A stretch of DNA of 64,000 bases from Hypholoma sublateritium FD-334 SS-4 (Eukaryota > Basidiomycota > Agaricomycetes > Agaricales > Strophariaceae), in the NCBI GenBank assembly GCA_000827495.1, contig KN817533.1, positions 499,751 through 563,750 on the forward strand, given 5' to 3'. Position numbers and translations under genes: made by a program. Shown in pieces: positions 1 to 16,600 of the stretch. Within the stretch, counting starts at the first letter, position 1, and every line of letters begins with the position of its first letter. Under the pieces are notes generated by a model that was given only the letters and a program-made list of their open reading frames with translations, was not told the origin of the DNA and did not search any database.

Positions 1-2914
1 ATCAGGGTGGGGATGGCGATGGCGATGGCTTTGAGGAGTGGCTCGTATTTGGTCGTGCGCAACGATTTCGATGGAGTCGTGGATATGGGCGATGAATTCG
101 ACTTCGTGCCTAGGGTTTGGATGTTCAGGTCGACACGGGGGGCTTCGAGGACGATCGGTTCGGCTCCGTGCGCCTCAGATGAAGGCGATGACGTCGACGT
201 TGCCGTCGCACTCGAAAACTTCGATGGCCTCAAGTTGGGCGCTGAGGGCGTCGGCCGTGATTTCTAGGCGGTTACGCTGTTCTCCAGCTTTCGGTAGCAC
301 GGCATAGCGATTGAATTGGCCATGGGTGAGGAGGTTCGAGATGATGACGTGGCGTGAATGCAGCGGGGTGCGCACGATCGCGCGCAAGAGCACCCATTTC
401 TCAGCACCCAGCGAGAAGAGTAGGCCCCGTCCACGCGGCCGCAGGCGATTGAATGGCGATAACAGCTCGCATATGCGGATCGCCCGCGATCGATGAGAGC
501 TCGCCAGACTAGAGACTCGTAGGCTGGGGAATGCGTGGGCGGGGTGTCCGTGGATGCTGATATCGGCGCTGTGCACGGTCTGCGGGTTCCAGGATGCGCT
601 GGGAGTGGGTCGTGGACTGGGGGGAGGATGAGGCACATAGCGGAGCGGTGGTCGGTGCCAGACACAAGGATCCGGAGCCGTTATGGGCTTGGCTGTATGC
701 GCGGGGGGGCAGCGGGTGGGCGGTGAGCGTACGATGCGGGCAGATCGAGGACTCGCGGAATGTGAAGCGCAGCGAGCGATCCTGGCTGTGTGGTGTTCGC
801 GAGGCGGCGGTGGGATGACGGCAGCGTCGGAGCAGAGCGGCGGCGATGGAGGCCTAAGCATGCCGGGCGTCGAGCGTGCGGTGGGATGGGGACATGTAGG
901 ACGATGAGCGTGGGCTAAAGGCGTGTTACGCAACATGGATATGCACTCCGATTCCGGCGATCGCCGGCCCACCTGCTATCAGCACCCCATATCTCCGCGG
1001 TGCCCGTCGCTGGATCGCACGGCGCCTACGTACGAACAAGTTAATTGCCCTACGAGCCCCCCCGGGGACAATATCTACACGGAATACGCCGATGTTTGGA
1101 TATACACTCGACGGCGGCTCCGCGCAGTTCACCGAAGCGGCGCCGTTTCGCGGACACCGCGCGCGCATGGACGGTTTTTAATTTCGGTAGAAAATATCCG
1201 GTATATCCCCCCGAATGGGCTGCGCTCGGCGGCGGCTCTGAGAAGGGAGCATAAGGCGCAGAAACAGGACGGAATAAACACACGCCGCTTTGCGCATGGA
1301 CAGGTTTCAATGCACTTCTCCAAGCGGGGAGAACGCGCTCTTTTGCGAGCGCGCGCAGGCGGGTACTCCCGGCAGAAATGAGCGAAAATGTCCAGGCGCT
1401 GGGCGGGCAATGACATAGCATGTGGGTAGTGGCATGTGAATGGGTGGCGCATCTGGTAAGAGAACGACGCTGTATCGCTTTGTGAATGTAGGCATGCACC
1501 GCGCTGCGTGCGACCGGTTATGAGAATAATAATCAGGTGAGGGCGTACAGCACGGCCTCGTACTACCAGAGAAACGAGCCCACGCTAACGGCACGCCCGG
1601 AAGATCAGCACCCACAAGCCCGGCCGCGCTGTCAGCGCATGTGCTGATTATACATGAAAAGAAAGAATGATGCGTGAGTTCAAGAAACGCCAGCAGACAG
1701 CTCGCGTGCGGACAGACTTCCATCTAAAAAGCATCAAAGGGGCGCACGATTGCACGTGGTGGAGGAGACGCGCCCTGAGGTTGGTACGGATGGCTTCATT
1801 CGTGCATGCATACAACCTGGAAAAACGAGGTAAACGAGGTAGGCGGTGGCGCGATGACTGACTTCTGCGCAGGCGCGGACGCAGGCCTCAATTTCCTTTC
1901 CTAAGCGCCGTATGCGTGAGTGCGATGGCACGCGGGAATCGGGATTTCGGTGCGCAGACACGCGTAGGGGACTGACGTAGAGATGAAATAAGGGGATGTC
2001 AGTACATCCGGCGGCCGGATAGGATAGCGCTCACGGACGGATCGTACAGTAGTACGCACAGAGAGCGGCGGGAGGGGTGCAGGACTCCGTGCGTAGATCG
2101 ACACGGATCCCCGCGGATCGCCGCCGTAGACTGACAGTTATTAAGGTAGGCCGTGTTTGTGAGTGCGTTTTCAGCACCGTGGACGATCGTGATGGTGGAG
2201 GTGGGCTTCCGGGTCTGCGTTACGCTGCGGTGGGCTCAAATCAGGTGGGAATGGGCGCCGTATGAAGGCGGGGTGGAGAACACCCCTGCGAGAACATTCG
2301 CGTCGCTACATTGCACGGCGACTGCATACGAGCACGGTTTGTTCTTTACGATAAACGCGATGAAGAATATCTGCTGTATCGGGGATTTGAGTCATCACTA
2401 TCAGTGGCGGATCTGCGTGCCGAGAGCGTGATGACACGAACCTTAGACTACATAGAGGACACATACGCGCGGGGTGCCATCCTGCCGCAGGCCACGTCCG
2501 CATAGACGAATGTTGTATCTATTTTTGAACTGAGAGAGAGCGCACCTTCGTGAGAGCACACGAAGGTCTCTACAGAACGTACACGAGTATGGGCTATTCG
2601 AAGGTTATATTGATATGCGCTCGCGGATTCGCGCGTGTCCGGAAGCACGACGATGCGTAAAACATGCGCCGCGCGGTTGGACGGGCATTGGTCAATTTCC
2701 CACAGCAGAGAGAGCGCACTCTCGTACTAGCATACTCGTCAGCTTTCTCCCTGCAGGACTGAGCAACCCCGTCCAGGATACGAGCGGTGCGCTGTCAATG
2801 ATGGCGTATGCATGGTGTGTGTGGGGCGGGCCGGGTACGGTGCTGAAAAGCCAGCGATATCCAGACTACCGTTGATACACGCGTACGGATGGGTTATATG
2901 CAACAACACATCAA
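1..2914. other. Gene-poor CG-rich region left of the first transposon
   Basis: No convincing intact gene is visible. The DNA is CG-rich with many overlapping open frames on both strands, as expected by chance at this composition. The only protein-like stretch is the minus-strand frame at 175-486, described separately. No terminal repeats or simple-repeat arrays stand out. Confidence 0.5.
175..486 (-). pseudogene. Possible coding remnant or 5' part of a gene running off the left edge
   Basis: The minus strand has an open stretch of 103 codons whose composition looks like real protein (alternating hydrophobic and charged residues, for example HVIISNLLTHGQFNRY and ITADALSAQLEAIEVFE), unlike the Pro/Arg/Ser-rich frames around it. 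It ends at a stop at 175. A possible GT..AG intron just before the stop could join it to a further open frame reaching position 1 (containing KYEPLLKAIAIAIPTL), so it may be exons of a gene truncated by the window edge. The family is not recognised. A similar-looking fragment lies on the same strand near 30.4 kb. The reading is by eye only and chance remains possible. Confidence 0.25.
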
Positions 2915-2923
2915 CAGAGCATG
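2915..2923. repeat. Left target site duplication (CAGAGCATG)
   Basis: The nine bases directly outside the left TIR are repeated exactly, in the same orientation, directly outside the right TIR at 8280-8288. This is the expected scar of staggered-cut integration. Confidence 0.85.
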
Positions 2924-3116
2924 TAGTCTCATGCCCATCCTCTCGCGGGTGCCTTCCCAATTTGGGTCCCTCCCCGTGAGAGTCTGGGATATAACCAACA
3001 GGTTCAAGGGACTTTGGCGTTCGGTGGTATTTCTCGGATTACATAATGATAATACGAGCCTCGCGCGCGCGTCGATATTGTCGCGCCCGCCTCCTATTCC
3101 CCTCCTTCGCGTTTTT
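2924..3116 (+). repeat. Left 193-bp terminal inverted repeat of the helicase/DUF6589 transposon
   Basis: It is identical by eye to the reverse complement of 8087-8279 over its whole length and diverges immediately after GCGTTTTT. It ends 53 bp before the helicase start codon, so it is a good candidate for carrying that gene's promoter. A TATA-like TATAAATATA at 3151-3160 lies just inside, only about 10 bp before the ATG, which is too close to act as a conventional TATA box for that start. Confidence 0.9.
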
Positions 3117-3169
3117 CGCCACTCGTTTGCCACTCGTTCACACTTTTTACTATAAATATAACTTCTAAT

Positions 3170-5331
3170 ATGTCTAATGTCACTCCTTTGCAACAAAAGC
3201 ACCGAAAACGTCGCCGAATTCAAGACGAAAACACTCCTTCACGCCCTCTAATCACATCACCACGCAGTCGTCGGCCAGCCACAATAAGTTCATCTACCTC
3301 TCGCCTCGAGGAGCAAGGACCTTTCTCAACACCGGGGCCTCTACTCACAGACAAAGTGAACCGCATATCCTACAGAAATGGGTATGTAGTAAAACCCAAA
3401 ACTCCATCATTCAAACCGTACACCATAAACAAGCCTGGCCGCCCCAAGCACAAGGCTTTTGCTTTTACAGACTTTCCACAGCTTGAACCAATGAAAGAGC
3501 TTGATCAATCTCGTTGGAATACACTTGCTCTGCAGGCGCGGTTGATTCAGGCGGACCAGGAGCTGCGAGATTATCAGATGGAAGCCGCAAATTGGGTTAT
3601 TGGACGAAAAGGAGACCTATGTGTCATTGCACCCACTGGGGCCGGTAAATCCTTGCTGTGGATGCTGCCACTCTTAGCACAGAAGAGTGGAATCTCCTTG
3701 GTAATTGTACCATATACAAGCCTTGGGCACCAAGGGGAACAACGGTGCGGCTTGAAAACATTTCCTACATCACCTATTACTACGTATATTAAATATATAT
3801 TGCACTTAGACACCTCAAGTTAGCGATTGAATGTACCTTTTTACATTCCGGTCAATCAAATAACAAGGTTCTTGAGAAGATCGCTCAAGGTGGTGATATG
3901 CATGTCGTTTACACATGTGTTGAAATGCTCGAGACACCTGCTGTCGCCCGGGTCCTCTATTCCGAGTCATTCCAGGCGCAACTTTCAGGAATATACATCG
4001 ATGAGGCACATGTCATTCACGAGAGCCATTCCTGGCGACCTGCTTACACCCGACTTCACCTCTTGCGGCACATATTAGGGCTAGATATTCCATTGGTGGG
4101 CATGTCCGCAACATGTCCGACACGTTATCGCCGTTCCCTTGAAATCTATGCTGGTCTTCAACCCGGATATCACCTCATCAACCTAGGCAATTTCCGTCCA
4201 GAGCTGTCTGTTATTGTCGCAAATATGATACATGATGCCACGTCCTTTTTAGATTTATGTTTTGTCCTTCCGTCGACGACAACAACGCTTGATTCAATCA
4301 CCCCAGCCATCATCTATTGCGACGATCTCGAAATGCTCACCAAGATGTTCTGGTTCTTTCAGACCCGCGCGACGTCACTTGGTCTTCCAGCTTGTGTCAT
4401 CGACATTTTGCATGCAGGTCTATCCGAAGCACACCAGAAAATATGCACGGATGATTTCACACTTGGAAAATCACGCATCTTACTGGGCTCCGATAAAATA
4501 GGCGCGGGGATGGACTTTCCGCATGTTGGCCTTGTTGTCCAATATCGCTGTCGAGACCTGACACTTGTGCGATGGGAACAGCGTCGTGGGAGAGGCGGAC
4601 GGCGTAAAGGGGCCATGGCATTAGGTGTGCTTCTCGTCGAGAAGTCTATGACAGGTGAAGACAGTGATCTGTCGGTTCTATCTCCGAAAACCGAGGATCC
4701 CGCGCTACTGGACTATATTCAGACAAAGAATTGCCATGAAGTTATTTCTGATAAATGGAACGAGAACCCACCACGTCCATCCAACGTTGACCGCACTCCT
4801 TTCTCTCCCACACGTCGCAATTGTCTACGCTGCTCAAACTGCAATCCTACAAATCTCCGGCTCAATATTCAACTGGTTTGGGTTACTGAAGACATGCAAC
4901 AACGTCCTCTGAACCGTGTCTATCACGCGCCAGCTCCGAATACCGTCCAGCAGGCTCAGATACTGGAAAAATTAAAGACGTGGCGGTTTTGCCTGTGGGA
5001 GAAGGAGTGGAAAGCTGACTGGCCAAGTTACGGACCGCAGGCACTGGTCAGTGATTTAGACCTTCAGGAAATTTCCAAACGCGCGCACACCCTATTCTCA
5101 GCCGACGACATCGATGCCGTGACACAAATTCACCTTGACGACATATCCACCTCACTCCTCGAAAATCTTCGCACCATCTTGAAGGACACCTGTGGTACTC
5201 TTGCACCTGCTGCTCAAGGTATCCCCCGCACCGAGATACAACTTACTACACCGACCCCAGGTCATCATTATTCCAGAATTCAGTGGGTAGATAACTTTGG
5301 TCCGCAGGTATTTGACGTGATGGATACTTAA
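3170..5331 (+). CDS. RecQ-like DEAH-box DNA helicase carried by the transposon
   Basis: Two exons (3170-3744, 3810-5331) joined by a 65-bp GT..AG intron give a 698-residue superfamily 2 helicase. Visible motifs in order: Walker A APTGAGKS (about 154-161), DEAH (256-259), motif III MSAT, a second RecA-like domain with ILHAGLSEAHQ and GSDKIGAGMD, and motif VI QRRGRGGR (about 449-456). A CLRCSNC cysteine cluster follows, as in the zinc region of RecQ proteins, but no typical winged-helix RQC or HRDC domain was recognised. The N-terminal 110 residues are basic and Pro/Ser-rich. RecQ enzymes unwind DNA 3' to 5' using ATP in the nucleus. Position inside a TIR element, facing the DUF6589 gene, suggests a role in copying or repair during transposition, which is inference. 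It could instead be a captured host gene. Confidence 0.9.
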
Positions 5332-5342
5332 TTTACATCACT

Positions 5343-8044
5343 CTAGATAATCGTAATATCTTCTCGTGAAATCAGAGTGTGATTTTGGATGTCTGCATCG
5401 CGTGCTGTTGATAGCTCAGTGTCAACCGCTAACTGATCTCCGTGGCGAGTTTGAAGGCGCAGAATGTGCCGGCTGAGGTGCTTAGCATGTCCACCATTTT
5501 TCCCCGCCAATCGAGTAATTCCTGTCCGATACAAATCAACTACTGCATGCTCCGAAGATTTATCCCGTGTGAAGTCGAAGACAGCCGACTTGTAAAGGTG
5601 GTTTGTGATGAGTTGAATGTCCTTATGTTGGGAAACATGCGCGTGCTTCTGGTCTGTTCTCTCGACACCTATATCTTCAAAGAGCTGGTCGGAAAGTAAA
5701 GATACATGTCCAATGGCCGGCGTGATTTTCTCGAGAACATCGGGTGTTATGTTTGGGCCATGTGCGCGCTCTTTGATGTGGTCATTGAGATGCTCGACAT
5801 TGATATCAGTCGGCTTGAATCCGTCGGGCTTTCCGTGTGGGTTAACTAGCATCCCATTGAATGCAACTGAGGCATAGTCCTTTGGCCAGTCATGCACAAT
5901 ATTGTGTAGAACCTCCATGCATTCGTTTGCATAATTATAGCTCCCACCAGCATAAAACATGGGCAGCCAATACTTGATCATACGAGCAATACGCTGGGGA
6001 TGTCCATGTTTGATGGCGTGCTGCATTTCTCGTAGAGTCATGAGATCATGCATTAAAAGTACTGCATGTCCTGATTGTGTGTTTCCTTGAAGTGATTTCG
6101 CTCCAGAAGCTTCAAGTCGATCGACAGACGGTAATAGAAATTGATCCACAATTTTTGCGGCGGCTGATTGCAGATCTCCTGCTGTCAACAAAGTAGTAGA
6201 TAAGTCTTCAGCACGTTCCACCCCAAGAATTGTCATTGTCGCTGTGATGGCAAGCCCATTGAGTATTACGTCCAAAAACCGAAGCCATCCATAGTAATCA
6301 ACCTTTTGTAGGTTGATTTCCGTCCGATTGGGAAGGACATTACGGAGAGTGATAAGGCTCACGGCGTCAGAATGGCCTTCTGTGCCCCAGAAATTTCCTC
6401 CAGCGGCATGAATGAAATTGAGACCAAAGTGCATAAGTCCACTGGTCATAGAAAAGCTTGAGAGGTGATCAAATCGGTGGGCAGAGCGATCAACTGCATG
6501 CTGATCTTGCGCAGCACGATCTCGGACAGTTGTCAGACGGTCCCCAAGCACAGTAAACATTGTGCGTTCAAAGGTTTCAATTGGGATGTTGAGAACCTTT
6601 CCGAAGTAATGCTCAAGGACAACCATATTTCCTCTGGTTGATCCTTGCTCCTGATCAAAGGTAGGCAGGTAATATTGCTCAGTCTTTGCAGGAAATATGG
6701 CAGCTGAGTCGCGAAAACTTGGGATGGTTGGGGAAAACTTTGCTAGACCTTCGACCTGTGTTGCGAGAATATTCTGGAGGTGGATAATTGAATTCTCGCG
6801 GAATGATTGCTGATCGTGAGATGCTGGCACAATATCTGCAAGAGATTTTCGGGGAGGAAGTTGATGTCGAGTACGTGCTGTGGCTTCGAAGCGCGAGATA
6901 CTAGTGATGTGCTCGGCTCTCTCTCCAATGGGTGTTGGAAGAATGACCAACAGGGCGGACACTTCATCATGTGTCGCTGATTTGTTCAGTGCTGTTGCTT
7001 CAACAGCATATGCTGTCCAATTGAAATTGTCATAAGGAAGCATCTTGATCTTTGCTGGATCGTTTGCTGCTTTCTGTGCCTGGAGCAAGGAGCTCTTACT
7101 GAGCGCAGCTATTGCTTGTATTTGGAATCCATAAGACGTTGAGATTCCGAGGTGGTTAAAGGCCTGTGTGAGGCGTTTAGGCACTCGGTTGTCCCATAAA
7201 ATTAGTGAATTCATGGCGGCATGATAATTCAACTTTCTGCTCCGTAAATTAAGGATTGACGATGTGATCATTGTCCTGCCCTGTTGATAAATATAAAAAA
7301 GTAGTCCATTAAATGATATATATATTCCCTCACTGCATCAGGGTTTCTACTTCCTTCAGTGACTTCAAGTGGATCCTTTGCGATAACAGCTTTGATAATT
7401 GATTGCAGGTAAGGTGTGACCCGATCGTAAGTTGCTGTTAAATCATAGAGGCGGAAATTGTTGACCATGTCGACAGTAATATTATTGGAGGATACACGTA
7501 GTGACTTGGCTTCTGTTTCATGTGGACCAGAAGATGCTCTTTCAGCAAGCCAGCCGCCCTCCCGCGCGCAGATCTGCGATGCCTTGTTGATTATCCAACT
7601 ACACATCTCTTTATCTCGCAATCCTCCACTTTCAATCCACCACAGTTCCATCAAGACGAGAAATCCGCCCCCAGCCTTGAATATATTTGATGAGTTGGTT
7701 ATTTCTCCATCTTTCGAAGTGAACATGGTCTCCAAAAATATCCTGAGAGAGAAGCGAGAGAATGTTTGCATAAAGTCTAATGTCTTTCGTGTCTTCTGGG
7801 CATTTGTCATGGGTGGGGCACGTTTCTCAGGAGTTTTAGGCTGCTCGTATGTACTGTCATCTTCGTCCTCATCCATAGATTCAAGCTGGTGGAACAGCAC
7901 CCATCGCTCGTCATTGTTATCTGATGATCGCGCCGGTGATGATGCCTGTGGGTTTAAAATAGGAGAGCTGATCGCGCAAGGTTCATCAAGCTCGGAATCT
8001 GAGTCCAGACCACGGAGAGTGAAAGAAATAAGATCACCACTCAT
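5343..8044 (-). CDS. DUF6589-domain protein, candidate transposase of the element
   Basis: Two exons on the minus strand (8044-7334 and 7280-5343) with a 53-bp intron keep phase and give 882 residues. The first exon is acidic and Ser-rich, then has a helical region. The second begins with the R-K-L-N-Y-H...LILW and LGIS-SYG pattern I associate with basidiomycete DUF6589 proteins, followed by GDRLTTVR (about 483-490), GLMHFGLNFI, WLPMFYAGGSYNYANE (ending about 690), LVNPHGK and a DINVEHLNDHIK segment. Family assignment is from memory of these motifs. The Asp of GD-LT and the Glu of NYANE are spaced like acidic residues of an RNase H-fold nuclease, so a DDE-type transposase is plausible, but this is inference. 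The start codon was chosen because it lies just inside the TIR (43 bp). Earlier in-frame codons lie within the TIR itself. Confidence 0.82.
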
Positions 8045-8086
8045 GTTTTCAGTTTTTCTACACCGCGCACGATTGAATATAGCTGT

Positions 8087-8279
8087 AAAAACGCGAAGGA
8101 GGGGAATAGGAGGCGGGCGCGACAATATCGACGCGCGCGCGAGGCTCGTATTATCATTATGTAATCCGAGAAATACCACCGAACGCCAAAGTCCCTTGAA
8201 CCTGTTGGTTATATCCCAGACTCTCACGGGGAGGGACCCAAATTGGGAAGGCACCCGCGAGAGGATGGGCATGAGACTA
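8087..8279 (-). repeat. Right 193-bp terminal inverted repeat of the helicase/DUF6589 transposon
   Basis: It is the exact reverse complement of the left TIR. It ends 42 bp upstream of the DUF6589 start codon, so both genes of the element are preceded by the same 193-bp sequence and probably share promoter elements. Confidence 0.9.
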
Positions 8280-8288
8280 CAGAGCATG
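8280..8288. repeat. Right target site duplication (CAGAGCATG)
   Basis: This is the direct copy of 2915-2923, lying immediately outside the right TIR. Confidence 0.85.
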
Positions 8289-8829
8289 TGCACGCCGCAC
8301 GCGGCCGATGTGAACACGCGCGTAGGAGCCCTGCAAAGTGCTGCACAAACCCATCCGGGTGTGTATGAAGCGGCACGCGCCTGAATGAAAGCGTGACTGA
8401 AAATGGAGGGGTGTACTACGTGTGCCGGGGAAGCGGTAGATGCATACGCTCTCGAATAAATGCGTGCAGGAATGAGGAAAGCGGGGCGTCGAAGGCAGGG
8501 GAGCGCAGGTGATCGATGTGGCGCGCCGACACCTCACGGTATCCGCAGCGCAGCATGACTTCCCGGCTGTGCAGCGAGCTGATGGGCGTGAGGTGATGGT
8601 GTGATGACAGGGGCGGCAGCCAGAGGATACTGAGTGTCGAACGTGCGGCGGGTGGGTGTGTCAACCACGATGAAACGACGATGAGCGAGGGCATGAACAC
8701 GAGGGTGAGCTATGAGTTGATATTTATAACAATTCTCTCGCCGATTGGAGGACAGCCGGGCCCGAATTTTGTATTGAACATATACGGTGTATCGCCACGC
8801 AATGCGACGCGACTGCGCGGTGTGCTTAG

Positions 8830-10870
8830 ACGCGCTACATATACGTACTCGCACCGTCTCACGCAGGCGCCACGCGCATGGAAAGGCGCTTTTAGATGAC
8901 TCCACGAGCGAAGAGTGCGCTTCGTGCGAGCGCACGCAGACGGCGGCTCCCGGCAAGCATAGCCGCGCCCTTCCAGGCGGTGGGCGAGGAAACGGTACAG
9001 CTCGTGGATTTGGGTGGTACTCTGCGTGTTGTGGCCAGTACGCATGCACACGCACGCGCATGGACGGGTTCTTGGAGTTTTATTTCTAGCGGGGAGGGCA
9101 CGCGCTCGTAAAATCGCACTGGCGCGACTGCTCCCAGCATGTTAAAAATGAGCAAACCCGTCCAGGCGGCGAGCGTACCGTGCGATGTCGTGGCATCGCG
9201 GCGTGGCGCGGTGATAGGGGCAGGGGCAGGTCTGGTACCCTTTGGACGATAGCGGCGGATGCAGGGGGGAGCGGCAGATGCATTGCACTGCGAGCGACCG
9301 GCTGTAGCAATTGCATACCGATCTGGGGCACACGGCGCAGGATCTTATGATCCTGCACCCAGTGACGCCCAGAAGATAAGCGTTCCGCGCCGCCCGCGCT
9401 GTCTGGATGATGTGCAGTGTGCCTGTTAAGAGCCAGTGTCTCCATGGATGCGGGCAATGCACAATGGCAGCACGCGCACATGCGGACGGATCCGGTCCCA
9501 CCTTGAACAACGGGGTGTGATAGGTCAGCGACACACCCCGTAGATGTTTCGCCAGGCTCCGTCCGCGCGCTCAAGTGCCGCATTACCGTGGAACAGAAGA
9601 ATTAGGCGGGGTTGACGCGGGAGCATGTTCAGCCAGGCGTGTATGCGCGCAATAGCACGCAGGCGCAGCTAGCGCCCTGCAGACACAGCGATGGGACCTG
9701 TCATCCCACGCGCGGGTGGTGCGTTGTGCAAACTAGTGTACGAGGGGAGGAGGCATACCGAGAGGCATGTCTCTGCGCGAGACGCTCGCCGTGCGTGGGC
9801 AGGACCAAATTTTTGGCCTTTGGGGGCGGGGAGAAAACGCTCGGGTGCAAATGCACACACTGCGCTGCGTCCCGCGAAGGATGGAAGTCCTGTACAGGCG
9901 GCGGAAAGCGACGGGAGGCGACGGGCGAGGGCTGAAGAATGGTGTGCGGGTAATCGGGAAGCGTGGACTCGGACAGGGACGCCGTTTCACGGAAGCCAGT
10001 CATGACCGGTGCTCGGGTGGAGCCGAGTCCTATTGGATACCAATGCTACACTTGTGCGCGGCCTGCGGTGGATGGCGTTCGCTGTAGGCGAGGAGCAATA
10101 TCTTGGGAGGGGGCATATGGATGGGGTGGGTGGGACTACAGCTATATACGCCAAGGAGTACACCTTAGATCAGGGTGAGGTGTTCATGGAAGAAGTGCGT
10201 GCGAGCATCGATGGATATCGATGCCTCATGGCATGTGGGTGTGCAAGACGGGGCGCAGCACGTCTCTCTGGCTGTGCCGCGTGTCTCTGTGCGGTGGTGG
10301 ACATGTGCTGGTGGCGGATGTATTAGCGCCGGCGCAGATGGACGGCAAAGGTAGGCAACAGATGCTGGCCCGTGGGCATGAGAGCGAGGCGGGTTTTGTA
10401 CGCGCGTCCCGCGGGAAAATCGGGCCGGCGTTGCAATCATGACGTCACTGCCTGAGGCCTAGGCGCCTAGGCCCTTTTGCAGCCCGCCTCGCGCGCTTCC
10501 GTCGCTGGGTCGTACTGCGCTTGCGTACGAACGCGCTCGCACACCACAGGACTGTGATAGCATATTTTATGTCGCCCCTTCAATACAACGTCTGCGAACA
10601 TGATTTAGATATTCCGATCCGGATGCTCCTGCTACTTGCCGCCGGCGATCAGGCCCAGGCGGCGCATACACAACACGCACAGGCGGCGAACTATCAGGCT
10701 GTCATTACATGTTAAAAACTCCATACATCAGGATCCGTCCGCGCGCACAAGTTGTGCATATCTGAACAAGAATAAAAGCGTAATGAGCGGGGACGCAGTG
10801 GTGGGTGCATAATTGCGCGAATGCACGGATAGTGATCCGCGTTTCACGTAGATGAACCATGTATTTATAA
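8830..10870 (+). repeat. Diverged segmental duplication, copy 1
   Basis: Collinear matches to 24120-25960 in the same orientation: GTACTCGCACCGTCTC at about 8846 and 24125; a stretch around GGTACCCTTTGGACGATAGC (about 9230 and 24500); AGGCGGGGTTGACGCGGGAG (about 9605 and 24873); ATCGATGGATATCGATGCCT (10208 and 25232); GACGTCAC (10441 and 25492); CATCAGGATCCGTCCGCGCG (about 10727 and 25807). The segments between anchors are clearly alignable but have many substitutions and indels, so the duplication is old. No conserved coding frame was found. Ends are approximate. Confidence 0.75.
10456..10473. repeat. 18-bp perfect palindrome present in only one duplicate
   Basis: GGCCTAGGCGCCTAGGCC is self-complementary and is also two tandem copies of an 8-bp palindrome. 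It lies within about 25 bp that are absent at the corresponding site of the second duplicate (after GACGTCAC at 25492), where the flanking GCAGCCCGCC follows almost directly. Confidence 0.7.
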
Positions 10871-13369
10871 AATTGGGGCACAGTCTGCCTTACATAAATC
10901 ACTTCTACATAACGTGCCTACTGCGAGCCGACAGCGTTCCCCACACGCGGTGTATGCACTGCATGTATGTACTTAAGCACAAGCCCCATCGTAGTGTCGT
11001 TTCATTTCCATAATCCATACCTCCGCGCTGCATCCCCCCTTCTGCCGTTCAAAAGACCCACCCACTCTCACCGGTCGCAGCACAACGCACGCGCCTCCCG
11101 GACATCTAAGACATCCACCTCCTGGCCCACATGCGTACAACGGTTAACCATAAAGACGTCGTGCATGTTGCTCTCAGTGGATGGATTCCCGATGAAGGTA
11201 CGGGAGGGGCCCGATGCGTCGCCACTCCGCGTGCACATCATGTCCCTCAGTTCACCAATCCCTTGTTCCTCCCATTTCTCTGCGCACCCAAACTCTCAAT
11301 ACACTCTCCGTTTCCGTGGATGCGCCAGCAGCTTTTATAGCACCTACACCTTCGCTAATCCCCCGTATCCCTGTGCGCCTAGCCGCCGTGCGTTTATACT
11401 CCCGCACAGACACACGAACGATTCGGGCCCACGCCACGCCGCATATACCTTTAAATTTCGCGAGCTGCGGGGCCCTCCCTTGGTGTTCTCGTCCATGCAC
11501 TGTGCGGGAGCACGTACTCACACGATCATGGCCGCATCACATCGCGTCCCGTTCACGCATCGTCACCCCATCTCTTTCCCGTCTGTTGTTTATTGAACCA
11601 ATGCCGATACTGCTCTCAAAAGAATTTATGTCATATTCATACAGTTCAATAAATGTTTCGTGATCTGAAAAATCAGCGTAAATAATACATTCGTTCAATT
11701 GAACATCCATGTATCTGGACTATCCAAGCGCAAGGCATCTTTATCACAAGTATCTTCCCTTCAGAAATGTTTATCTCCTCCGCAAGCCGCAAAAATTCAC
11801 TCTACATATTGAATTCTCTCCAGCTTCCCTGTTCCGCACCGCAGATTGCCTTCCTTCTCCGTCAAACTGCAGTCAGATCCCCATAGCGCAGTGCTTACTA
11901 TATCCCATTGCCCATACATAGAGATTTCGCGTACATAGACGCGCCGCGCGGCCCGTCCATATCACCTATCAGCAACCCGGTACCGCGTACAGTGTACACT
12001 GCGCATCGAACGCGCGTGCACGGGTAGTCATGGAATCGCACAAGCCGGCCGCAGTGGCGCGATACGCGCGGAGCAGGTTGCTCAGCGGTTGCTGAATGGG
12101 GGTTTACAGCGCAATCACGCCGTGGGAAGAGGGGATTAATTTCAAAAATGACAAGGCGCGAAAAAAAGCAGACCGCAGCCTGGACGCGCACCATGAGTGT
12201 TCGGTGCACACAATGTACATGCGCACACACAGCGCGGAGGTGCCACCGCGGACAAGTCGAACCTATGTGGTCCCGTTACCAGACGCTGCGCGCTGTTCGG
12301 GCGTAATCGAAACCGTATGCGTGCGCCTGGGAACCGGCAAAATATACGCGGGAGGTTTGGCAGAGGGGCGAGAGGAATAGGAGAAATCAAGAGCGATACG
12401 GCAGGTCTGTCCACCGCGGAGGAAGGAACACGGCAGGCTGGGGCGCGGTGAGGGCGCAATGTGGAGATGAAGGCAGGCGACGTGCCAAGGGAAGCGCCAG
12501 CGTCGAAGTGAATACGACGGGGATGGGGGAGTGTGAGGTATCCAGTGCGCTTGCATCCCGAAACACCGAAATATAGCCATTTTGAGCGTTAGGAACATGA
12601 CTCGGGCAAATGACTATAGGGAGAAGATTCAGCACACGAAACTCGCGGACCCTCGTTGCTAGAGCGCATGCAGGTACACCTAGATACCAATTTCCGTACT
12701 ATTTAAATTATAGCGTACTGTAAAAACTTGGCTACTTCCCCTCTACCCAGTATATCTCCCCCCCATTCTATCTTCAGAAGTTCAGTCTCTCGCTCATTTC
12801 GAAGTTCGCAGTACATAGATTATTATTTATTCCCTAAATAATTACACTACACTCCTCACCTTTCCGTGAACCCCCAAGACGTCCACACCAGTCGTCGCTC
12901 GCACCCCACAACCACCTTTCAGGAGTAAAGCGGCGGCGGCGGCGGCATGTAAATAGCGGAAGGACCTGTCATGTATTCTGAAAGAAAAAATATGCGTTAG
13001 TGGAGTAGAACAATCACATACAGATGCTGCAATCGATCGCTCTCCAAGAAAAGAGCGTACGATGAACGGATAGAAAAGGGGAGGCCACTGGCATACACAC
13101 GCTCCTACGGCGACCCTCAGACATCGTCAGTGGGCGGGGAGTGCGGTGAAGCAAAATTACCGCGCTTATGCGCGCCCACATGGAGACGAGACTGCGCGGG
13201 AGAGGAAGCGGTGACGCAGCGACGGAGATCGGGGGAGATCGGGTGGAGGAAAGGGGCGGGGAATACTGGGAGAAGGAAGTAGCAGGGTCTGGGCGCACTC
13301 ATCCGTCTAGGACGTTGGCGCACACAAGGTGTGAGAGAGCGTGTCTTCTGTCAGTGACAGATTCAGTGT

Positions 13370-13690
13370 GGAGACATATGCAAGGGGAAAATGTACACGC
13401 AGCGGTATGTGCGTATCCTCCAGTGCGTCGCAGGGTAGGACGACAGCAGATCGCCGACATCCAAGGAGCTGGATAGCTGGTGAAATTTGAAAGGACGTGA
13501 CGCGTGGTGGTAGTAAGAATTGACTTACGATGAGTTTAGCCGGCTGGGGCAAGAAAACGCGCACGGGCGCGTGGTGGGAGGAGGAGCAAGGTGAGAAAGC
13601 ATTCAACTCGACAGCGATTTAGATCTTCAAACACGCACAGATAAATGTACAGCCACTCGGCTCGATCACTTCTGAGGCCGTCCGCAGGCC
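13370..13690 (+). repeat. Diverged repeat, copy 1 (partner at 16740-16980)
   Basis: The segment around ACGCACAGATAAATGTACAG (about 13633) and the following CTCGGCTCGATCAC resemble ACGCACAGATAAAATCACAG and CCGGCGCGATCAC at about 16936. Upstream, the CGTCGCAGGGTAGGACGA stretch resembles AATCGCAGGCGAGGACGA near 16783. The match is patchy and ends are approximate. Confidence 0.45.
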
Positions 13691-16600
13691 CTACGTTCGA
13701 GTGTCGTGTCCTGTCGCTTCCTGCGCTGTGGATTACCAGCCGGATGACGGTATAATATCCTGTATGACACTCTGGAGTCTGCGGTACGACGGCCACGTCC
13801 CGCAGGCCGGCATCGCGAGCCGACACGCCGATCACGCGCGCTGGCTGAGTAAGGATGTAGCTGTTTATTTGCCTCTCCCCTCCGATCCGCGTCCCGCCGC
13901 ATGCCCTTTCGCTTCACCTCCTCCAGCTTCAGCCCCTCCAACAGTCCGCCAACAAGATAAGTAGTCTTATCTGCAGCGGCGCTACCGTCATGCACTCGCT
14001 TGTCCTTCCACTCTACACCTAGCTCCTTTCCCCACTCTCATCCATGGGTACAGTGCGCCGTGTCTCTCGGCGACCACTGTTCATCCACGTCCTCCACCCG
14101 GCCATCAGCAGCTTCCCAAGACGTATTGCCTCTGTGAAACCGAGAACAGCCCACTGCCCACATCAAATTGCCGCGATTTCTCTGAGTACAACGCAAATTC
14201 ACGACGCTAGGTATGTACCCCCTACTCGCATTCACACGTTGCTACTGACTCTAATATTTCATGTGTTGCCCTACATCTCTTTCTGGCCTTCATGTCACCG
14301 TGGGTAGTACGAATACTCGCCATCCGCCGCTGCCGAAAAACATCAGGGGCGCCGCCCGAGATGCTTTCTGTCCCACAGTCGACACCTCCTGTTCTCGGTG
14401 CGCCCTACACCACTTAATGTAAGCTCCCCCACCACCTGTCCTTGCACATCGTCACCCGTGCCGAATTTCCACCTCACGGACTTACGTACGCGCGGCGTCC
14501 CACTACGCCGCATCGCACGTCTCCCCGTTTCAGTGAACATATTTGTACGGGTGCGTGTCTGCGCTGGCCCTCCTTCTCCCTTTCTGTGAATCCACCTTGT
14601 CTTGGCTCGCGTCACGCACCTCGGGCGCGCGCCCGTGTCACATTTCGCTCTGCTATGCATCCCCGCTGACGGGGCCTTGCCCATCTTGCTACCGCAAAAT
14701 CAACGCAGTAACAGGCCGCCCCGCAGTCCCGCATTTCGCTTATGACCGCTCGATCTCCCTTCTCACCTGGGTACCTGGCCCGCAAATTCGCATTCGGCAA
14801 CCAAGAGGCGCTTAGGGTCGACGTCGGACTGTCCGACACGTACAGCTCGCCGTGCGCCTCAGCATCGCAGTTGCACGCCGGATATCGATGCGGTTGTACC
14901 AAGACTCTTCTTTGTGTCGCTGTTCAACGGAATGCCGGCTGCGGGACGGAGACAAGATAGAGGAAATACAGGAAAATTTAGATACTTACAGCATTAAGCC
15001 TGTCAACTTTTTAGATTACATGATAAGTTAAGACAAAGCTAACTAAACATACAGTCTATTTATTCTCTACGTGTGGACGATGAAATATTGAAAATGCAAT
15101 TTCGACTGATATTCAGACATGGCTCTCCGGACGATGGTCATATCGAGGAAGCGTAACGTGGCCCAATGCTTTGCGTAGGATGAGGCTGTGGTTGCGAAAG
15201 CGCGACAAGCAGGAGCGAGTGTTACTTAAATTCACCGCAAAAGCGGGCGCGGAAAGACTTCGGATGGCAAACGCGCGAGTATTAAATTCTGTACGTTTGC
15301 AAAATTGCATGTACCGCGTCTCTGTATTATTTAGTATGCGTATTATCTATTTATCTAATGGGCTTGCTCTCATATATGCTATCTTGATCGATGCGCGCGG
15401 CGCACGCGTAGGGTATCGACGCTGCGGCACACGTTAGCGCGACTGTGCGTGCGCAGCGCGCACCGAGAAATCCCGGACGGATAGCGCGAACATGCGCGGA
15501 CATTATGCGCATGTACAAGTAGCGACCCCGCGCACGGCCGACCATCACAAGTTCCTCTGTAAACCCAGCACTGCATGCATGGCGCACGGCGCCGGAGACG
15601 CGCGTGCACGGGTGGACCAGGATTCAGCTAGGTCAGCCGTGGAGACGCGGCGCACGAGGGGCACGAAGAGTAAGAAGTAGACGAACCGCCGAAACCGAAT
15701 CTGCACTCGAGATTCCCGCCAGGAAGCTGGTAGCGCTTGTAGCGCAAGAACACGCCCAGGAAAGCGCTCCAAGACACGGAGCAGAGGCGGCATCGAGCGA
15801 GCAGCGGAGACCAAAGGCTGCGCACGCAGCGCAGGTACTAAATGCACAGGCATTCCCCTGCGCGTTGACCCAACATAGCCACACTCTACCTGTTTAGCAG
15901 TACACTAGCCGCAGCGCGTGGTGTTGGCACAGCAGACACAGGATGCGTGCTCCCGGATGCATGCCGTTCAGCGCGGGAGCGAGTAGCGGAGAGGGTCAAG
16001 GAAAGGGGGATGTGCGATGAGACTGAGAAGGTGGAAATGGAAAGCCAGCCGTGTATGTGATGCACCGAGGATTCAGTGAAATAAGATAGCCTGCACGAAC
16101 ACGAGTGTTCGACGCACTTGGTCACACTCCCGCGCATAAGACATTTCAACAGCTTTACCGGGTGCAGCGCGCTATGCAGGTGCATCCGACACCGCACATG
16201 TGCACCCGGATTCAGGCCGAATATATGCGGGAGCAGGGGACCAGGAGGAGGGCGAGTAGCGGGCGTCAGGACGAAGGATTTAGGTAGATGGTGGCGGTGG
16301 AGAACGGGTGCATAGAAATTCTGCTGAGGTGGAGGCTGGATAGAGCGCGTGGTAGTGGGCCAGACATGAAAGGGAAGCTGAGCAAGCGAGGGCTGGAGTA
16401 GCACGGCGGTATCAGCTCGAAGGGCATGATCGACGATGCGCGCGCGGGACCGCTCTTGCGCAGAGCACAACCACAAATTTCACGGGCACGCACCGCGGTG
16501 CAGCATACACAGCGCACGCGTGTTCCCGGATAAATTCGAGAATGCACAAGAGCGGGAGCGGCGTATATCGGAAGGGATCGGGATGAGGTGAGAGGGACGC

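Follow-up and report, generated by a model that had tools for sequence, protein, structure and literature searches.

A RecQ-like helicase and a predicted DUF6589 transposase share a Hypholoma sublateritium transposon that most likely belongs to the AcademH lineage

Within the Academ superfamily, the AcademH lineage reportedly goes back to Kojima in 2020 (Mob DNA 11:15). Published accounts describe its members as carrying a helicase gene with 9- or 10-bp target duplications (PMC10045372) and as low in copy number in Basidiomycota (PMC10045372, PMC10799480). AcademX, the second Academ lineage named in PMC10045372, is described as carrying a nuclease gene with 3-4 bp duplications, and it was suggested that the duplication lengths of the two lineages follow the presence of the helicase versus the nuclease (PMC10045372). 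Academ is counted among the DDD/E superfamilies, and the same source places a RecQ helicase in KolobokH, a fungal DNA transposon, downstream of the transposase domain, with one example encoded on the complementary strand (PMC9587614). Here we analyze a stretch of 64,000 nucleotides from Hypholoma sublateritium FD-334 SS-4 (contig KN817533.1, positions 499,751 to 563,750; hereafter the window), which contains a compact two-gene element. With a probability of about 80%, it is a transposon with terminal inverted repeats (TIRs) and a 9-bp target duplication, in which the DUF6589 protein is a predicted RNase H-fold DDE transposase, a RecQ-like helicase likely assists, and the lineage is most likely AcademH.

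The element spans 5,356 bp (2924-8279). Its TIRs (2924-3116 and 8087-8279) match at 193 of 193 bp and it is bordered by a perfect 9-bp duplication, CAGAGCATG, on the left (2915-2923) and right (8280-8288), confirming both boundary features of the original prediction, which was made from the sequence alone. Uncorrected, the inverted repeat reads 195 bp, because the adjoining TG/CA pairs too. The direct repeat likewise runs longer in its raw form, to 11 bp (ACAGAGCATGT), leaving the duplication ambiguous here between 9 and 11 bp. Its length is taken as exactly 9 bp because a miniature inverted-repeat transposable element (MITE) on contig C18, 768 bp long and with ends 82-84% similar to the window TIRs, shows an exact 9-bp copy, ACGGAGGAG, on each side next to TAG...CTA. 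Two tail-to-tail genes, 11 bp apart, occupy most of the interior. Both frames are open and the intron of the DUF6589 gene is backed by homologues. The two-gene layout of the original prediction is confirmed. The G+C content is 47% inside the element versus 59% (1-2923) and 56% (8280-16000) outside. The features are as follows.

2915..2923, no strand: left target-site duplication CAGAGCATG (sequence; single target, CAGAGCGTG, in the paralogous empty site)
2924..3116, plus strand: left TIR, 193 bp, starting TAGTCTC (sequence)
3170..5331, plus strand: RecQ-like superfamily 2 (SF2) helicase gene, 698 amino acids (aa), exons 3170-3744 and 3810-5331 (domain matches, open frame)
3629..3652, plus strand: peptide APTGAGKS (translated sequence)
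3745..3809, plus strand: predicted helicase intron, GT...AG, 65 nt (open frame)
3997-4011, plus strand: peptide IDEAH (translated sequence)
4579..4602, plus strand: peptide QRRGRGGR (translated sequence)
5343..8044, minus strand: DUF6589 gene, 882 aa, exons 8044-7334 and 7280-5343, predicted DDE transposase (PF20231, fold, homologues)
5922..5924, minus strand: codon of E690, predicted catalytic Glu, in NYANE (conservation and model)
6540..6542, minus strand: codon of D484, predicted second catalytic Asp, in GDRLTT (conservation and model)
7029..7031, minus strand: codon of D321, predicted first catalytic Asp, in YDNFNW (conservation and model)
7281..7333, minus strand: DUF6589 gene intron, 53 nt (sequence and homologue alignments)
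8087..8279, minus strand: right TIR, 193 bp, final letters GAGACTA (sequence)
8280..8288, no strand: right target-site duplication CAGAGCATG (sequence)

The left and right flanks each match one further site in the genome, and both matches fall inside C16:434351-434850, on the same contig and 68 kb away (78% identity left, 85% right). When the two flanks are joined around a single target copy, they align across this paralogous site, with gaps of 8 bases shortly before the target and 7 bases directly after it. Because this related site lacks the insert and has the target once, as CAGAGCGTG, the element is shown to have inserted into older sequence. The sequence surrounding the insertion (window 2603-2923 and 8289-8445) thus has a 78-85%-identical copy, L049, 68 kb upstream, which serves as the empty site.

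The minus-strand protein matches PF20231 (DUF6589) at E 5e-92, the sole Pfam family found in it at E up to 1. Models of DUF6589 proteins from two lineages, with predicted local distance difference test (pLDDT) scores of 90 and 88, resemble Hermes, P element, RAG1, Transib and IS256-type transposases. The closest folds are those of Hermes (hAT); lower down is ISCth4 (IS256), which is Mutator-related. In both predicted models an RNase H core carries an Asp on strand 1, an Asp after strand 4 and a Glu on a later helix, and a D-D-E triad is strongly conserved in DUF6589 proteins, positioned as an RNase H-fold transposase requires. Since the models match known transposases and the conserved triad is correctly sited, DUF6589 very likely represents a DDE transposase, with D321, D484 and E690 as its predicted catalytic triad. 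The nuclease role assigned to it in the original prediction is therefore likely, judged from predicted fold and triad. Searching PDB sequences with the DUF6589 profile gave no match at E up to 1. Pfam indicated no second transposase in the four frames scanned, overlapping frames of up to 311 aa lying outside the scan.

The splice junction of the DUF6589 gene is spanned by one alignment in all eight homologues compared, and it is gap-free in P0004, the homologue read residue by residue. Protein searches with two DUF6589 queries returned 158 and 340 matches; an alignment-based second search recovered mostly the same close relatives. Among IMG/VR contigs, 43 pattern matches included no confirmed relative.

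A TIR search of the 46.1-Mb genome gave 16 matches at 11 loci: the window element, the C18 MITE, three very short palindromes in which two ends are joined, and six loci with a single end. One full-length copy of the window element was found. PF20231 gave 18 matches at 10 loci, and a remnant on C99 forms an eleventh DUF6589 locus. A related helicase lies within 5 kb of seven of the eleven (C16, C31, C34, C38 at 37 kb, C99, C113 at 25 kb, and C126). As for the remaining four, no helicase was found in the 10 kb around the loci on C37 and C38 (19 kb), and the neighbourhoods on C196 and C52 were outside the comparison. Five linked pairs are convergent and two (C34, C113) divergent, so it is proximity, not one frozen arrangement, that is conserved.

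A search for TAG...CTA ends bounded by an exact 9-bp duplication covered eleven loci (L037-L047), with TAG and a partial end-to-end match as search conditions. Four matched: C126 (CCCTGGCCT), C34 (TACTGTCAG), C31 (CTCCATCCC) and a helicase-only element on C113 (AGCCGGTGC). The 20 offset controls gave 0 matches and 20 rounds of shuffling gave 3. At C99 the duplication is 8 bp (TGACCAGA), or 9 bp if the element's final A also counts towards it. Linked loci with TAG...CTA ends thus comprise four, window included, with a perfect 9-bp duplication and a fifth with an 8-bp one. TAGNYTC, a motif that was not itself a search condition, is present at 11 of the 12 ends of six elements (window included), among which the weakest end-to-end match is that of C34 (10/20). 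No duplication-flanked ends were found at C37 or for the helicase-DUF6589 pairs on C113 (22001-42000) and C38 (32001-42000), both of which contain N gaps. The layout proposed earlier as a check recurs in the pairs on C126, C34 and C31, each with TIR-type ends and a different 9-bp duplication.

Identity between C34 and C113 is 42% for the transposase and 57% for the helicase, and between C31 and C38 it is 45% and 35%; the parallel divergence of the two genes is based on these two within-lineage pairs. The window transposase is 24-31% identical to the others. For the other cross-lineage transposase pairs the identity is 24-44% over 60-389 residues, and for helicases of different lineages it is about 21-34%. 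Repeated linkage, the TIR and duplication bounds and parallel divergence together support the view, also taken in the original prediction, that both genes are part of the element's machinery and not passengers. A broken transposase on C37, 58% like that of C34 and with no helicase in the surrounding 10 kb, weighs against parallel divergence.

One element on C113 near 69 kb (L041 4781-8521) is TAG-ended, has a perfect 9-bp duplication and carries a helicase with no detectable DUF6589; none of 247 DUF6589 proteins matches it at E 1e-4. C99 (L046) was considered as helicase-only and rejected, as it contains a DUF6589 remnant. The three palindromes, nearly spacer-free and with 43-53 bp per TIR end, lie at C16:329736-329824 (L010 1501-1587), C68:109449-109550 (L006) and C131:71495-71577 (L016). 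The one on C16 has a perfect 9-bp duplication (CACCACACC) and may hide an assembly gap, because an N lies at its centre. An interpretation of the palindromes as excision relics was dropped, given this N and the lack of a perfect duplication at C68 and C131. Within each TIR (window 2940-2982 and its mirror), CTCTCGCGGG and CCCGTGAGAG are pairable by eye at 9 of 10 positions, so that each end could fold back; the palindromes break near this stretch.

The plus-strand protein matches the Pfam models DEAD (4.5e-8) and Helicase_C (2.8e-10). Its best solved relatives are RecQ-type, with human RECQ5 at the top (E 2.3e-7, exon 2 as query). APTGAGKS is helicase motif I (Walker A), IDEAH motif II and QRRGRGGR motif VI, and the protein carries motifs I, II, III, V and VI. 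Support for the intron consists of the open frame and motif continuity only, and alternative GT/GC-AG choices keep the frame open too.

During transposition, the DUF6589 protein would bind the TAGNYTC ends and its D-D-E triad would cut the element out. Joining of the ends to the target with a 9-bp stagger would then produce the 9-bp duplication. The helicase may either separate the strands at the ends or act after excision, processing the broken donor site. Several of the fold-matched transposase families cut via hairpin intermediates. Linkage suggests that the helicase assists transposition, and as it is the whole evidence for such a role, there is a considerable chance, somewhat short of even, that the helicase is an accessory the element can do without, for instance as an aid to host repair of the excision gap, with no part in cutting or joining. 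Its open frame and the retention of motifs I, II, III, V and VI argue against this, as does the retained helicase frame in the copy without detectable DUF6589.

Like AcademH as described, the window element bears a helicase, has a 9-bp duplication and is low in copy number, and no difference between the two has been demonstrated; the DDD/E transposase is matched by prediction, through fold and conserved triad. On these traits, the low copy number being the one described for Basidiomycota, the element most likely belongs to this lineage. It differs from AcademX in its helicase and 9-bp duplication, and no XPG domain was found in the four frames scanned. KolobokH shares the RecQ-type helicase in a fungal DNA transposon. 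Kolobok target duplications are TTAA, in contrast to the 9-bp CAGAGCATG of the window element, which also encodes the DUF6589 protein. The original prediction regarded RecQ-type helicases as foreign to TIR transposons, which is not supported, since published accounts describe a helicase in AcademH and RecQ in KolobokH (PMC10045372, PMC9587614). For the same reason its "poorly described group" is indeed thinly described, but of an already published kind, given the helicase and 9-10 bp duplications of AcademH.

It is unlikely that the DUF6589-helicase elements form a separate superfamily that reached an AcademH-like plan with a different transposase. At least one further superfamily, Kolobok, has also taken up RecQ-type helicases (PMC9587614), so helicase recruitment can happen repeatedly, and DUF6589 was not found by name in the literature searched; on the other side, duplication length, helicase and low-copy fungal distribution all match AcademH as described. 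Equally doubtful is the more specific proposal that DUF6589 is a transposase of the Hermes/P element/RAG1 type that works only in partnership with a RecQ-type helicase, and that the elements carrying both make up a superfamily outside Academ.

That this is a Mutator-like element (MULE) or a hAT whose transposase has diverged is very improbable. Mutator-like traits here are the long TIRs and the 9-bp duplication, and the closest folds include Hermes and, lower down, the IS256-type ISCth4. hAT and P element transposases share the predicted RNase H core and its helical insertion between the second Asp and the Glu, but no sequence similarity of these to DUF6589 was found. In the Pfam scan of the protein, DUF6589 was the only family detected at E up to 1, to the exclusion of MULE, Transposase_mut and hAT models, and the fold similarity reaches P element, RAG1 and Transib as well. 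hAT and P elements are not known to carry a helicase gene, and they make 8-bp duplications. Mutator, hAT and Kolobok were accordingly rejected by domain content or duplication length. That both genes are passengers caught between the TIRs of another transposon can be dismissed: although gene order differs among copies and the TAG-ended L041 element shows variable gene content, this idea is already contradicted by helicase linkage at 7 of 11 DUF6589 loci across lineages with transposases mostly 24-44% identical, and by an interior mostly taken up by the two genes with no other transposase by Pfam in the four frames scanned.

The element itself is a probable further member of an already described group. 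The predicted transposase function of DUF6589 is the new part and appears to be unstated under that name in the literature searched, where PF20231 occurs only in papers that, judged by title, have other subjects. A family that is expanded in mushrooms, and to which Pfam still assigns no function, thereby gains a testable one. Given the 158 and 340 matches to the two queries, transposase could become the annotation of hundreds of mushroom proteins now called hypothetical. The copy described here, whose ends are identical and whose frames are open, provides material for asking what a helicase does in a cut-and-paste transposon and whether it sets the length of the 9-bp duplication.
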